Source: Aphrocallistes beatrix (lineage: Eukaryota; Porifera; Hexactinellida; Sceptrulophora; Aphrocallistidae). From it: a stretch of DNA of 64,000 nt. The stretch is taken from positions 1,835,986-1,899,985 of the forward strand of contig OY725488.1 of NCBI GenBank assembly GCA_963281255.1, given 5' to 3'. This document shows, one piece after another, positions 27,915 to 43,820 of this stretch. The notes under the pieces are model-generated. The model worked only from the letters and a program-made list of their open reading frames with translations. It made no database searches and had not been told where the DNA came from. How positions within the stretch are numbered: the stretch's first letter is position 1; the number at the start of each line of letters is the position of its first letter. The position numbers and the translations under genes are program-made.

Positions 27915-28804
27915 ACATTTCAAAGGACATTGTTTTTGTAACAGACACAACGGTTGGTAGTAAAATCTGACTTGCCACTGCAACTTAAACGGGTAAATTA
28001 TCCCACTTCGAGCCAAGCGACTGTCCGCACGGACAGTTGTCTGTCGGGAACGTCCGTTGGATATAAGAGCATGCTAGTACCCACAGCGAAATACATCTAA
28101 ATATATGAATGCTTTGTGCCTACCTGAAAATCTGAACTACTGGGTTTCACATTTCTTACGGTTTCAATAAGACTAATAGGACCAATTGGAGTCCTCTCGA
28201 CGATAGGAATCGGTATCCTCTCATTATCTTCACAGTGCACGGGTGTAAATGTGTTACGAAATTTTTGAAAAAATTGCCATTACAAACGGTGCATATTTTT
28301 ATTATATAGGGTATTTCTACTAACAGAATCCACAATCTTTTCGATTCCCTGACATCAAAAAAAATTTTGATGCAATTTTAAGTACCTGGGGTTGGTTAAT
28401 TTCTGTACAATTTTCGATATCTGATTTCTCATCATCTACTCATTTTAGATGTAATTAAAGTGCTAAATATGTATAGAAGCCATGCATAAACTGTCTATGA
28501 ATAGTGTATTTACTGAATATAATGGTTTGATTTCACGAAATCTTTTATTTTTGACCAAAATCGCCGTTCCGCATCCCACTATCCCCGGACATTATTCACA
28601 AAAAATTTCTTCACTCTAAAATGGCAGATATCATTGTTTACTCGTATTATATGGAAGTTTGTTTCGAAATAAATATATATAATGTCCGTATATTGCTATT
28701 TTCAAATGTTATATATGCTAAATTGTATATTTTTCTTAGTTTCCCTTTTAATGTTTAGATAGTTGTTAACTGAATTACTGCTATTATTGGAATTAAATAT
28801 TCTA

Positions 28805-30440
28805 CTGTATTTCTCACTCGATTATCCGAGCTAGCCAATCAATTATCCGAGATGGCCAATCAATTATCCGAGATGGCCAATCAATTATCCGAGATAGTCG
28901 ATCAATTATCCGAATATTTATGTACCAATCAGTTCGCCTGATTCTGCACACAATGAAAGGGTATTGTATGTATTTACATAATTGATTAAATATAAAATGC
29001 GAAATGGAGAATTATTTTGGAATCAAATCGTTGTTAACTTAATTTCATATGGCAAGTAACACATCAAATATTTCTGAATCTACTCCTGTCAGAAGAGGAG
29101 GTAAAGCAATCAGTGATGAAATCCGCTCAAGGTTGATCAAAGCTCATGAAACAGGACTTAGTTATGGGCAAATATCCGAACTCTATGATGTTAAAAAGGA
29201 TACTGTATATCGCATTTGCAGTTTTAGGCAGTATACAACCAAACCGCGAGGTGGTTCAAAGGGGAGAAAGATAAACCAAGAAACATTAGGTTATCTTATA
29301 AATTTAATTGAATCCCGAGCGGATATACCGCTTCATGAAATGAAAGATGCACTAATACAAGAAAAGGGACTCACTGTTATCAGTAGCAACGATTGCACGA
29401 TGTCTCGAAGGTTCCCTTATTACTCTTAAGAAAATGGAATTAGTTCCAATGAATAGAAATTCGGAGGAAAATAAAATTGCAAGACGCCAGCATGCATCAT
29501 GGCTGCAAACTCAATATGAATTGGGAGCACAATTTTGTTACATTGATGAGTGTGGATTCGGGTTATACACTGCTAGGTCACATGGACGTTCTGTCAGGGG
29601 ATTACCAGCCAGAAGAATTGTTCCGAATCAAAGAACTCCGCATATTACCATGCTATGTGCTATTAGCCCTAATGCTGGACTAATCCATAAAATGATGATA
29701 ACTGGAGGAGCGAAGCAGGAGAATTTTGACCAATTTATCAATGAATTATTTCACTTAGAGTTCGGTCAAGCGGTTAATCCAATTGAAGGAGTAAATAAAT
29801 GCTACTTGATATTCGACAATGCACCCTGTCATCGAGGTATTGAAGCGAGGTTAGCCGAAAACATACCGGAAAACTTTGAATTGATCCGTTTACCACCTTA
29901 CAGCTGTGAACTTAATCCGATCGAATTTTCGTTCAATAGTCTCAAAGCATATTTGAAGCGTGCTATCAGTATACATGGACCAATTATTCCAAACCATGGT
30001 CAATCACTTGCTACAGCAAGAAGACAATTTCTTTTGCAACTGGCTCCTAGTGCACTCAGTCGAATTACTGCCACCTCCACCCTCAATTCGTTTTTTCATG
30101 TCCTAACGATAACTGCTCCCCAAGCCATTAGGCTCGAAGACCTCTAAATTTGATTTAATAACCAGCCAGAGCTATCAAACTCGATTATTTAACCCATTCT
30201 TCTTAAATAAATCATTGTTAAAATATTTATCTGAATACATATAATTGTGAAAAATAAAATCTACACTAAATTAACTGGATCAAATTTTATCGGATAATCA
30301 ATTGACTATCTCGGATGATTGATTGACTATCTCAGATAATTGATTGGCTAGCTCGGATAATTGATTGACTATCTCGGATAATTGATTGACTATCTCGGAT
30401 AATTGATTGACTATCACGGATAATCGAGTGAGAAATACAG
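28805..30440 (+). mobile_element. DD35E Tc1/mariner-superfamily transposon, nearly intact
   Basis: The ends CTGTATTTCTCACTCGATTA and TAATCGAGTGAGAAATACAG are inverted repeats flanked by TA (28803-28804, 30441-30442). Inside each end lies a tandem array of a 21-bp unit containing AATCAATTATCCGAGAT: four to five on the left (28821-28918) and six to seven on the right (30291-30425), in inverted orientation. One transposase gene lies between them. Confidence 0.9.
29049..30147 (+). pseudogene. DD35E (ITm) transposase with a single frameshift
   Basis: Two ORFs overlap the same gene: 29049-29429 and 29434-30147. The first has an HTH region (SDEIRSRLIKAHETGLSYGQ, then ISELYDVKKDTVYRI) followed by a basic linker KPRGGSKGRK. 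The second carries the DDE_3 catalytic core: Asp38 in YIDECGF, Asp128 in IFDNAPCH and Glu164 in ELNPIEF, counting from its Met. That leaves 35 residues between the second Asp and the Glu, hence DD35E. The frame changes near 29405-29430, where LEGSLITLKKMELVP continues in the second frame; one base lost or gained explains it. The combined length of about 365 residues is normal for IS630/Tc1/mariner transposases. All three catalytic residues are kept. It is inserted in the RAG1-like element. Confidence 0.85.
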
Positions 30441-30503
30441 TAGTATCATTTTGCGGTTATATTTGTACTAAATATATCTAACATATGCGTATGTAAACAT
30501 ATA

Positions 30504-30979
30504 CACTACCCGGACAAAAGTATTCGACCACCACGAAAACCTCCATACAAATAGTATTAAAGTGGATCTATTCAAAATGGAATATGTAATCAAACAGAAG
30601 AGATATTCTATTTTTGATTTCAGATTCGTAAACTACACATCCGAATTACTAATTTTTGAAACTTTCAATACAAATACTAATTCTCATGCAGAAAATTATC
30701 AACCTCTGCCGCTTTGTGTCACTAATCGCCATCATATATAATGGATGTGACTCTGGATAAGTAGCATCAAGTATCAAAGTAGATATTTATAATTTTGGGA
30801 GTTAGTAATTGAGTTGAGGATCTCAATTATGAGTAATTAGAATGTGTAGATTAGGAATTAGAAATCAAAAATAGAGTATTTCTAACAGTTTGAGTACACA
30901 TTCCGTTATGACCAGATCCACTTTAATACTATTTGTATGGACGTTTATGTGGTGGCCGAATACTTTTGTCCGGGCACTG
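30504..30979. mobile_element. Tc1-type MITE (family D), complete
   Basis: TIRs of about 65 bp begin CACTACCCGGACAAAAGTAT and (complement) CAGTGCCCGGACAAAAGTAT, flanked by TA at 30502-30503 and 30980-30981. Non-coding. Other copies are at 5190-5941 and 59805-60167. Confidence 0.85.
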
Positions 30980-31032
30980 TATATGCTGTATAATAGCGCA
31001 TATCTCTGCTTAAGATACAAATTTTATGCTTA

Positions 31033-33173
31033 CTAATCGTCATCAGAATTATCTGTGTCCCAATTGTGAGGTTGAATCCTATCATCCTCCTCGGTGTTAA
31101 TATTATCCATCAACTCTACCTCATCGTGAGGTGTTAGTGTTTTCTGAACCACTTGATTCTTTTTGTGATTCACGAATAGCATCGTCCCAATTAAGATTGT
31201 AGTTATAGGTCACCATACAGTCGATCAGACGTTGAGAATATAATGCTTGGTTAGTTTCTCTTGTCTTGAATCTCAAATTCCACATCTTCTGCAGACGAGA
31301 ATGAAGCATTTCACCACTTTGTTCTGAACTGATCGCAGCTCCAGCATTAGGAATAGACTCATAATAGAGAAAATATTCTTGATAGTGATCAGATAGCACA
31401 TGGGATTTTAAAGACCACGGCAAAGAAGTGGATGTCCAAGCATCCCTGAAGTCACGAATACTTTCGACCCAGCCTAATTCACGGGTTTTTCCAAGACATT
31501 TATCTTTAACGGTCTTCAATGCTCTTAGTGCATCTGAATACAAATTAGCATGAACTTCAAAAGGTATTTCCCCCATTGCCACTGCATCTAGAAGGCGTGA
31601 ACATGAATTTCCTTCCAGTGCCCCTGTCCAGTAATCAGATCTGTATACCTTAGCCTTTAGCAATGCTTTACAGTGACGTTTATAAAGTTGGCGACTCTCT
31701 TTAGTCACGGCTGTTTCCGATGGTCTTGCAGCAAAATAGAGTTTATTCGTAAGACCGATCAGGATGTGGAGTGGAGCTAGTGCTAGTACCTCCATTGGAG
31801 AATCCTTCCACCGAATAATGGGATGATTGACAACATTATTGGATTTTAAAGCTAGGTCAGATATAACCCCATCATAAGATCTAGGCTTGGCTGGTTTTCC
31901 AGTACAGGGGTCTCCTTTTCGCCAGAAGCAATATGGACAAGGGTGTTTGCTCTGTGCCTGTTGAATTCCAACAAGCAGTGCTGCAACCTTAAAATCACAA
32001 GCTATTTGCTTTGGAATTCCAATATCAAATAGTGAAAAAATAGATGGATAATTAAACATTTCTCTCAGATTGTTGTGAGTTTCAGGAGCTTGTCCAATTG
32101 CGATCACACAATTTGTTAGTACGTACGCTGTTTGGATTTGGCAGGTAGTGACTCTTGGTGATCACTGAAACAATATTTACTGACATTTTTAGGAACTGTT
32201 GACCGCCATCGAGTTGGAACTTAAGCCTTGTAATGGATTCAAATTGATTATTTGTGACGATATTAAGTAATTTATGAATGTCAATACAGAATCCAAATGG
32301 GGTAGGTACAGGTTTAGCAGATTTGTCTGTACTCTGCTCTATATTGAGCATGACTGGAGCAAAAATCTCGCCGAAGATGATCCACTTTAATCCCAAGCAG
32401 CCTTTACGCCTCCTGCTGGAAAGATGACGCCATCTCTACGAAGTATCCTAGCCATTTCCCAATACGCATTCTTTCCTAAACCTAGGTGTCCAAGTCGTTG
32501 TAGATCTCGTACAGTTGAATAGCTGAGAGTTTTAGTGTCATGGTTACGAACTTCATAACCTACTGAAGTAAGTGCAAGCTGTCTATTACTGTCAAGAGGG
32601 GTGTTTCAAAACTTTATTGCATGCATTTTTATCATGACTATCCATGAATTGCCCACACTTACTACACAGAGACTTGATAGGATTTTGTTCAAGTGGTCGT
32701 CCTGCACTAGATAAATTAGATTGCAATTTTGTTAATCTATTATTGACCAATGATGAGGCTATTTGGCATACTTGGCATCTCATTTCGGCACTACATACGA
32801 TTGTTTGCCTTGTGTCGCGGACGAACCTATCAATCATTGGTTGAAATTCAATAGAGATACGTAATTTGGAACACTTTTCTTGAGTTATCTCGTCAGAATC
32901 AAGTCGGACAAGCCTTCTTTTACAGTTGTTACACAGTGTCTTAGGCTTCGAAAGATTGGTTAACTCGAGCGAAAAATCTATGTTATAAAACTTCTTTGCC
33001 CTCTGGACTACAAGGGTAGAAAGTGACTGCCTCTTTGTTGTTGCAACAGCACAAGAAATGCGTCCGTAACAAAAGCGACAAACGCAATAAAGTTTATCTA
33101 AGTGATAGTCATCCCATATATCCGCTACTTCACTAACGAAAAGATTTAATATAGTCATGGAAATCAACCGCAA
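31033..33173 (-). pseudogene. RAG1-like transposase, split by frameshifts
   Basis: Minus strand, read through four frames. Piece 1 (33173-32592, 193 aa) has a zinc module: C32-x2-C35 (YCVCRFC), FYNIDF at 62-67 and C81-x2-C84 (PKTLCNNC), matching in order the conserved N-terminal Cys motif of RAG1 and of the mollusc N-RAG-TP. Two more Cys clusters follow (CSAEMRCQVC and LCSKCGQF). Piece 2 (about 32592-32395) reads SYSTVRDLQRLGHLG and YWEMARILRRDGVIFPAGG. Piece 3 (32396-32082) has KFQLDGGQQFLKMS with the likely first catalytic Asp. Piece 4 (32107-31121, 328 aa) has Asp38, C57-x2-C60, LHILIG at 114-118, GNSCSRLLD at 166-174, H236-x4-H241 and Glu262. Known RAG1 has D708, C727-C730, H937-H942 and E962, so the spacing is almost the same. 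A shifted acidic tail (DEVELMDNINTEEDD) ends at 31033. It is a pseudogene here; catalytic residues persist. Chapaev-type transposases are the main alternative. Confidence 0.7.
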
Positions 33174-34199
33174 ACCAAAATGAATGGTAAAATACTATTT
33201 ATTCTCGTCAGAAATTACAAAGGTTACGTATATTGTCGTAAAAATTAAATTCTTCGTAATTGTATTATTCCTACACATCATTTCCAAAAATGGCATCACT
33301 CAAGTTATTCCTGAAAGCCTTATCTATGAGATTATACTATCTCTACAAATATTACATGTCATACTTGTTGTATGTTTTCATTATTTTATTTGAATCAAAA
33401 TGATTCAAGGTGGAGCTGTGATGATAATCATATTAGTGAAAAGGTATAAACATTGTATTTTCTATTCCATCAGAATTTGGGGCACAGAAAAGATCTATCA
33501 ATTTCTAAACATAAATGGTATTTATTAAAGATGTGACCAATAAAAACCATCTAGTTATTAACTAAATTGCTAGAAATATATGTACAATAATACGCTGAAC
33601 GGCGATTTTGGTCAAAATAAAAGATTTCGTGAAATCAAACCATTATATTCAGTAAATTAACTATTCATAGACAGTTTATGCATGGCTTCTATACATATTT
33701 AGCACTTTAATTACATCTAAAATGAGTAGATGATGAGAAATCAGATATCGAAAATTGTAAAGAAATTAACCAACCCCAGGTACTTAAAATTGCATCAAAA
33801 AATTTTTTTGATGTCAGGGAATCTAAAAGAATGTGGATTCTGTTAGTAGAAATACCCTATATAATAAAAATATGCACCGTTTGTAATGGCAATTTTTTCA
33901 AAAATTTCGTAACACATTTACACCCGTGAGTGGTATGTTTGTGTCGTTTACTGCTTGACTCGATCATTAACTTGCCTTTCCTCTGTAAATTGTTAAAGCA
34001 ACCTAACGGGTTTTCTCTCAACCATATCAAACTTACAAAAAGAATCTTAGATGGAGAAGTACTGCTCCTCCTTGGCTCCACACGCATCTACCATTACTAT
34101 GCTGGACTGCTGCCAATACGGTTCCATAGGGAAGTAATAACACTGGACCTGTTGGTTAATAATATCAGTTGGGTTTAAGATATTTTTAAGATCACAGCC

Positions 34200-36945: not shown

Positions 36946-39900
36946 CAGTGGCGTAGCTAGGGGGGGCAGGGGGGCGGGCCGCCCCGGGCGGCGCTTAATA
37001 GGGGGCGGCACTTGACCTTGTGTTTCATAAAATATAGATATTGGTAACTGAATTTTTCCAAGGTATTTTGAATTTGAACATGCTTTCTCAGCTAATACGA
37101 GTAAGAATAGTATTTTAACTTAATTTCAAATATGAAATTCTAATGGTTTTGTCTATTCATGAATCCTTAATTGAGTAAGTAATATATATATTCTTCCTAA
37201 ATTAGTTTGATATTTACTATGCAACATATTGCGGTAATAGTGATTCAATTGATTATTGTTTATTAATGAAGCCATTAGTTACCAATTACAATACTCAGTT
37301 CTACAATATGAAGTACAGTAGTATATACGTAGTACGTAAGACCTTTAAATTGATGCATTACTACACAGTCTACACTGTGTTATTTCTAAGTCGAACAATA
37401 TATAGTATATTAGCGAGTTTTATTGTGTCTTTACCCAAAGAAATACTATGAATAGTAATAAAAGGCAGAAGCTCAGCGGTGCAGCTTACAGAAAACAAAA
37501 AAAACAGCGAGATGCAGAGATCAAACTCTCCGCTGGGACAATGAGCCAATTTTTGATCCATTCAGAAGTTGTACCCTTAACTCCAGCTCCTGATCTAGAA
37601 CCTTCAATAACTTCTACATTCGATGAGACAGTGCTCTCACAGATTAATAGGAGGGATACTTCCGAAGATGGAGGCTCGGAATCTGAGTTCGATTCAGAGT
37701 CTAACCCAACAATTGAATCTTATTCAGAAATTGATTGTGTTCAACAGAGTGCTGATATAGAACCTGAACTATTCACTGATGCTGGAGTCTGGAATATTCC
37801 ATTATCCGATGCAATTCGAGTTGAAATCGTGTTACGTCGACCATATAGTCTTCAAAACAAGAATGGGCCATTTAAATCTAGAAAAGTATGGTGCAAACCC
37901 AAAGGGAGAAGTGAGAACTCTCAGCAAGGATTGGTTTTACGGCAAGCTTGAAAACAGGGAGAGAGTATCCAGATCATGGATGTTGTACTCCCCCTCTAAC
38001 GGATGTCTCTACTGTTTCTGCTGTTCTCGTTTACTCGGTTAACGAATCATGCTCAAAGTGACTTTGTAATCAAAGGGTTCCAAACCTAGTGGAAACTAAA
38101 TCCAAAAGTGGTTGAACATGAAAGAAGCGTCGAACACTACATAGCATTTGACGAGTGGAAAGAAATGGCGATGCGATTAGACAATGGTCAAACTTTGGAC
38201 AAGAGCCTGCAAATGGAATTAGATGCTGAAATAAAGAAATGGGTCAATATTATATATCGCATTGTAGATGTGATTCTGTATTTAGTCAAACAAAATTTAT
38301 CGCTTCGTGGTCACAGAGAATCCCTGGATGAAGATGGGAATCATGGAAACTTCCTTGAACTAATAAAGCTCCTTTCTAAGTACGACCTGTGTTACGAGAA
38401 CATGTTACACACATACGTTTAGCTACGACGAAAATGCCACTCTCGTATTTGAGTCCGATGATTCAAAATGAATTTATTGCATTGCTCGCTAGTCAGGTGA
38501 GGCAGAAAATTGTTAAAGATATCAAAGATGCTAAGTATTATGCCATAATGTTTGATAGTACACCTGATTTGTCTCACACGGACCAAATGAGCCAAATCAT
38601 CCGCTATGTTGAAATAAGGGCTTAACTGTACAAGTGGTGGAATCTTTCATCGATTTTATTCCCACACAAAGGAAAACCGCCAAAGAAATTACTCAAACTA
38701 TCCTTAAAAAACTTAGCGATGATGGATTGCCAATTGAAGAGAACCATGGGCAAGGGTATGACAATGCGGCCACCATGGCTGGAATCCACATGGGTGTGCA
38801 ACAACAGAGTCGAAATATGAACCCGAAAGCTGAATTTGTGGCATGTGCGAATCATAGTTTGAATCTAGCTGGTGTTCATGCAGCAGGGGTTTCAGTTCGC
38901 TCGATCACTTTCTTTGGAACAGTAGAAATAATATACTCCTTCTTTTCTTCATCTACTCATCGATGGGATATAATGAATGCACACATACCGAAGGTTCTAA
39001 AACGAATAGTAGAAACTCGTTGGAGTGCCAGGAATGATTCAGTAAAGGTAATTTACTCCCATTTCGACAATGTTATTGAAGCTTTGGAACAATTGACTGG
39101 AATAGAAGAGAACTCTTATACAAGGGGAGACGCGCACTTAATCACTACAAGTCTAACCACATTTCCATTTTTATGTTACCTTGGATTATGGGGCAAAATA
39201 CTACCTGAAGTGGATGATGTTCAGAAATATCTTCAGAAAAAGGGACTTAGTTTGGATCAAACTATTACTAAGATTCATGCACTTCGACGATTTCTTGACG
39301 AGGAAGGAGAGCGACAAGTTGACGATGCCATTTTTTATGCATTCACCAAATGCAAAGAAATGGATATATCCATAACAAGACGCATAAGGAAGAGAAAAAG
39401 TATGTATGGCGAGAAAACTGGAGGTGAAGAAAATACTTTACAGGAAGAGCTTCGAAAGGATATGCTACAAGTTGTTGGCAAGTTGTGGGAGGAAATTAAT
39501 CGCCGCTTTGACCAGATGCATATGATCAATCAGAGATTTGGATTCACTCAATTTAGCATTCTGATGAATCCTGAACGTACTGAACTCATTGAACAGAAAA
39601 TTGATGCACTAGTTGCTATTTACGATGAACTAGATGGTGCAGAGTTGAAGACAGAAGTGGGTAGATTTAGGTGGTATATAAAAAGTTATAATGAGAATAA
39701 CCAGGTTATAGGGGGAGAGAACCTTACAGCTCTAGGAGTTTTGCAGTGGATGGTCAAATGGGGTTTTACAGAGTCACTTCCAATCTTTCCATCGTTATAC
39801 GAATATTTCTCACCATGTGTGTCAGTATTGCCAGCTGTGAAAGGAGTTTTTCTAAATTGAAACTCATAAAAACATACCTCAGATCGACAATGAATCAAGC

Positions 39901-43583: not shown

Positions 43584-43614
<31 letters not shown>

Positions 43615-43820
43615 CATACATACATACATACATACATACATACATACATACATACATACATACATACATACATACATACATACATACATACATACATACA
43701 TACATACATACATACATACATACATACATACATACATACATACATACATACATACATACATACATACATACATACATACATACATACATACATACATACA
43801 TACATACATACATACATACA
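43584..43820. repeat. (CATA)n microsatellite
   Basis: About 59 uninterrupted tetranucleotide units. A hairpin (TTTTTTTCTGGTATTTTCTG and complement) follows at 43821-43875. Confidence 0.98.

Follow-up and report, generated by a model that had tools for sequence, protein, structure and literature searches.

A decayed, probably Chapaev-type DNA transposon in a glass sponge genome and its distant relation to RAG1

We describe a decayed DNA transposon lying within a 64,000-nucleotide stretch of the Aphrocallistes beatrix genome (the window). On published marks it is very probably a copy of a canonical Chapaev element, and we assign it so because the testable Chapaev marks were found in its family (the Chapa domain suggestively so) while the 5-bp duplications of RAGL elements and, in the element scanned, their RAG2-like gene were not found. 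Chapaev belongs to the CMC/CMCT clade, alongside Transib and RAG1. The preliminary description had read the transposase as a RAG1-type recombinase relative from its catalytic and zinc spacing. A transposon, and relatedness to RAG1, were borne out, the latter mostly through a second family of the same genome (the bridge family); a RAG1-type identity drawn from spacing was not. The ends, the 4-bp duplications, the conserved motifs, and the open and near-identical copies laid out below were observed directly.

The element occupies positions 28238-33928 on the minus strand and measures 5691 bp, including two nested insertions, with CACGGGTGTAA at both ends. Comparison of copies gave sharp borders, which read CACGGGTGTAA or CACAGGTGTAA across copies and follow the consensus CACRGGTGTAA, apart from a changed right end in L014. 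The terminal inverted repeats (28238-28551 on the left and 33614-33928 on the right) form two arms of about 315 bp that are 97 and 98% complementary; in the L009/L011 subfamily the repeats are about 860 bp long, as cross-matches between copies showed. A 4-bp target site duplication, AGTG, flanks the element at 28234-28237 and 33929-33932. Duplications of this length were found at six of the nine loci with both ends in view: besides the window copy, these are L010 (AACT), L011 (AAGT), L017 (ATCC), L009 (GGGG, adjoining a G run) and L014 (GATC, if one changed terminal base is allowed). All six stop at 4 bp, with no fifth matching base. At the other three loci (L013, L015 and the composite L012, which has unlike ends) no duplication was found.

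The two nested insertions are a Tc1/IS630-like transposon on the plus strand (28805-30440), with ORFs at 29043-29429 and 29356-30147 (DDE_3, E 6.1e-20), and a MITE-like inverted-repeat element (30504-30979). Both have TA on either side and are missing from the sister copy L002, which in turn has some 160 bp near 32598 with no counterpart in the window. Searching genome G000 (100.5 Mb, 28 contigs) at E values up to 0.001 gave 121 matches, several with open frames; this number is a lower bound and takes in fragments and distant families. Copies within one subfamily are about 95-99% identical, which suggests from sequence divergence that the family has been active fairly recently. Elsewhere in the window, a perfect (TACA)59 microsatellite occupies 43585-43820, and a 415-aa plus-strand ORF at 38613-39860 resembles, by eye, a hAT-type transposase or a domesticated relative.

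The single transposase gene of the element is broken into four minus-strand pieces: a cysteine-rich, Chapa-like N-terminal region (32592-33194), a fragment in a further frame (32387-32605), a fragment in another frame carrying the probable first Asp in the stretch FQLDGGQQF (32082-32435), and the catalytic core (31121-32161; 346 aa from stop to stop). The preliminary description had judged the first Asp likely to lie in that upstream stretch, and the stretch is indeed found there, in its separate frame. The core holds the second Asp, C-x2-C, LH, GN, H-x4-H and SE-x3-E motifs. Numbered on the 346-aa ORF, with preliminary residue numbers in brackets, the second Asp is Asp56 (38), followed by Cys75 and Cys78 at +19 and +22; LH-x3-G starts at residue 131 (113, given there as 114 and thus one off), GN-x3-RLL at 184 (166), and the H-x4-H pair falls on 254 and 259 (236 and 241). 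RAG1 residues D600, D708, C727, C730, H937, H942 and E962 were checked on the mouse RAG1 sequence from the PDB. The Glu proposed as the partner of E962, 21 residues past the last His, is present as Glu280 (262), but the alignment through the bridge family selects another residue, the second Glu of SSEQSGE. This is Glu284 (266), 25 residues past the last His and four beyond the proposed one. Direct alignment of the window's family with RAG1 is ambiguous around E962.

Next, conservation was examined in 15 translated copies, which are not independent because many are close kin. D-x18-C-x2-C, LH-x3-G and GN-x3-RLL are each kept in 15/15. H-x4-H is kept in 13/15, with Asp replacing one His in L010 and in L014, and SE-x3-E also in 13/15, being missing from the ORFs of L003 and L004. 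The strict first-Asp pattern was matched by 10 of the 15; the exceptions are L016, L004, L002, L003 and the window copy, and L004 reads FQLDGG at the site though outside the strict pattern. Relatives whose frames stay open over 761-795 residues occur in this genome and were read directly. These retain D-x18-C-x2-C, LH-x3-G and GN and, mostly, H-x4-H. Codon differences between subfamilies fall mostly at third positions (for example, 0.362, 0.248 and 0.605 for L005/L007), a pattern expected where the protein's function has been maintained. In one relative, L009:1740-5087, the transposase N-terminus is swapped for dozens of in-frame tandem 8-residue repeats (TQLVVERA/P) within a 1116-residue ORF. 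Further divergent families of this genome (L018-L024, L030, L034 and L035) show the pattern of Asp and C-x2-C, as well as H-x4-H in those that cover it. In a 14-row alignment made of seven rows from the window's family and seven from divergent families, the latter retain the Asp, C-x2-C and His, and GN is missing in four rows.

We then compared the family with published marks, quoted here from passages of the papers cited. A Chapaev element is described as generally making duplications of 3-4 bp; it is bounded by CAC..GTG, and its transposase bears the motifs C(2)C, LH and H(4)H (PMC4079192). In the window's family the inverted repeats run from 5'-CAC to GTG-3' (the right end of L014 being changed), 4-bp duplications were found at the six of nine loci given above, and the motif C(2)C occurs in 15/15 copies, LH in 15/15 and H(4)H in 13/15. 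The N-terminal region, whose C-x2-C pairs follow the same order as in RAG1, is suggestive of a Chapa-like domain. Transib, TransibSU, Chapaev and Chapaev3 are placed in one superfamily, and the Chapa zinc domain is common to Chapaev and RAG1, as set out in a 2015 account (PMC4411706). Where the window's family differs from canonical Chapaev is in the long inverted repeats (about 860 bp) of the L009/L011 subfamily, in the RING finger, which Pfam searches of L005, L007 and L011 did not return up to E 10, and in matching no named family.

The Chapaev3 subgroup shares the same motifs, and a Chapa domain is reported there too (PMC4411706). Its duplications, in the text of PMC4079192, are 3-bp TWA, between A and T, whereas those of the window's family are 4 bp and of mixed sequence; moreover, a separate family of the same genome fits that subgroup better, so that membership of the window's family in Chapaev3 is extremely unlikely. 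The better-fitting family (L039 and L040, on G000 contigs 17 and 15) encodes a 608-aa transposase that has H-x4-H and a cysteine-rich N-terminus. L039 is flanked on either side by TTA, lying between A and T, as described for Chapaev3 in a passage of PMC4079192; the left end of L040 is out of view.

The element might instead belong to another CMCT lineage, such as CACTA/EnSpm or Mirage, or to an undescribed sister lineage of Chapaev. CACTA/EnSpm elements bear CACTA ends, whereas the ends here read CACRGGTG. Their duplication is given as 3 bp, against 4 bp in the window's family, and for CMCT lineages at large the ends are described as mostly CA..TG and the duplications as 2-5 bp long, which speaks for this alternative (PMC12730594). 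C(2)C and H(3-4)H are likewise listed there for EnSpm/CACTA, Mirage, Chapaev, Transib, Plavaka, ESTA, Lanisha and RAG1. The Chapa-like N-terminus weighs against such a lineage, the Chapa domain having been stated in 2015 to be absent from transposons outside the Transib/Chapaev group (in the part of PMC4411706 that treats it), as do the 4-bp duplications, which agree with Chapaev (PMC4079192). We regard this alternative as unlikely. Families with TTAA or 8-bp duplications (Kolobok, P and hAT) are disfavoured by the CAC ends and 4-bp duplications.

Standard searches placed the proteins in no named family. The window ORF and family proteins had no match above curated cut-offs in Pfam or NCBIfam and none among PDB sequences; the sub-cut-off matches were weak (PF24623, E 0.021; zf-AD, 0.74 and 8.8; CLAMP, 0.064; two NCBIfam models, 0.16 and 0.84). 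Pfam RAG1 (PF12940) did not appear in hit lists extending to E 5 and to E 10. Relatives were not confirmed in viral contigs (A1, L019 and L039 proteins) or in further genome contigs (A1), and AlphaFold run on the window ORF alone gave a mean pLDDT of 36.7 and no usable fold.

How, then, does the family stand to RAG1? The equal Asp-to-Cys gap is no measure of closeness, since this gap varies among relatives: it is 19 in the window's family, whereas the L018/L021 family has 17 and the bridge family 15. Nor is the spacing of C(2)C and H(3-4)H specific to a RAG1-type recombinase, as it is common to many lineages. Direct comparison gave weak similarity. With hhalign, the window's family and three wider sets yielded nothing significant against full-length mouse RAG1 (best E 0.024); for the window's family alone, the N-terminal region ranked first (score 24.1, E 0.07) and the core was out of register. 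The 14-row profile aligned the core from D708 to the E962 region with a score of 24.6, which 3/300 shuffles equalled. A 12-row N-terminal profile scored 27.0, matching RAG1 100-185; this score was reached by 0/300 full shuffles, 6/300 that kept cysteines and 5/300 that kept C/H/W/P.

The bridge family was found through Pfam RAG1, which hit 19 places in the genome, all weak and below cut-off in that search and none at the places of the 121-match search. Its members are L048:1521-4944, L049 and L045-L047 (G000 contigs 2, 15, 10 and 17), with open frames up to 734 residues. The L047 protein exceeds the Pfam RAG1 cut-off (27.3 versus 25), and L046 falls below it (18.6). In both copies with both ends seen (2/2), the ends start with the exact RSS heptamer CACAGTG and the duplications are 5 bp (CAAAT at L048, GAAAA at L049). 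The bridge family is a RAG/Transib-type element. Its 6-row profile scored 53.2 against the mouse RAG1 core, as high as in 0/300 shuffles (maximum 27.3), and the 14-row profile matched the bridge profile at 55.6, a score seen in 0 of the 145 column shuffles that returned an answer (150 run; maximum 22.5). Because the bridge family matches both, the window's family is, as judged from these profiles, related to RAG1, at a greater distance than the bridge family.

These comparisons also bear on the preliminary description's proposal that the window's family is itself a transposon of RAG1 type (RAGL or Transib). With RAGL elements (TransibSU, ProtoRAG) and RAG1 it shares catalytic and zinc residues, its D-x18-C-x2-C and H-x4-H matching RAG1, as well as the N-terminal cysteine order; with Transib it shares the catalytic and zinc motifs, the profile bridge and the CAC ends. 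The D-D-E and ZnC2/ZnH2 mark of RAGL and RAG1 is thus present as a motif, one common to the whole CMCT clade. The duplications of RAG, RAGL and Transib are 5 bp, and RAGL elements carry a RAG2L gene, in the account given in part of PMC7204232, whereas those of the window's family are 4 bp, and scanning a single full element (L011, 3951 bp) turned up no RAG2-like ORF. In that element the transposase is the sole large ORF; the other ORF of at least 80 aa is 98 aa long and lies inside the transposase region. Profile PF03089 gave 0 matches in the genome, but its controls gave 0 as well, which makes that count uninformative. Canonical Transib, moreover, is reported to be without the Chapa domain (PMC4411706, in part). 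The bridge family fits RAG1 far better (53.2 versus 24.6), and it, not the window's family, has 5-bp duplications and CACAGTG ends. A RAG1-type identity is therefore very unlikely, and we retain the Chapaev assignment.

By analogy with known families, the Chapaev-like transposase would bind the inverted ends of its own element, possibly with the cysteine-rich N-terminus, and would excise the element with a three-acid RNase H-type active site that a putative Cys2-His2 zinc site may brace. Insertion would have involved a 4-bp staggered cut.

As for the host, COX1 on contig C28 has 14 TGA and 0 TGG codons for Trp, 42 ATA against 14 ATT and 14 ATC codons, and 16 AGA codons. The AGA codons presumably stand mostly at Ser positions, judged against known COX1 sequences. 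In glass sponge mitochondria AGR specifies Ser, AUA is favoured for Ile, and UGG is rarely if ever used, according to a passage of PMC2267718. On this codon usage the host is probably a hexactinellid sponge.

Cumulatively, the C-x2-C/H-x4-H spacing is a mark of the clade and cannot by itself flag an ancestor of RAG1. The more useful lead is the bridge family, whose ends start with CACAGTG and which can be aligned with RAG1 as well as with the Chapaev-like family. A glass sponge genome would provide, from an early animal, Chapaev, Chapaev3 and Transib-type elements with which to root RAG1. We tentatively suggest, at somewhat less than even confidence, that three branches of the RAG1 superfamily with open frames coexist in this one early-branching animal genome: a Chapaev family whose N-terminal cysteine region resembles that of RAG1, a Chapaev3 family, and a family of Transib/RAG-like elements with CACAGTG ends and 5-bp duplications. 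If this is true, both halves of RAG1, together with RSS-like ends, would have been present near the root of the animals.
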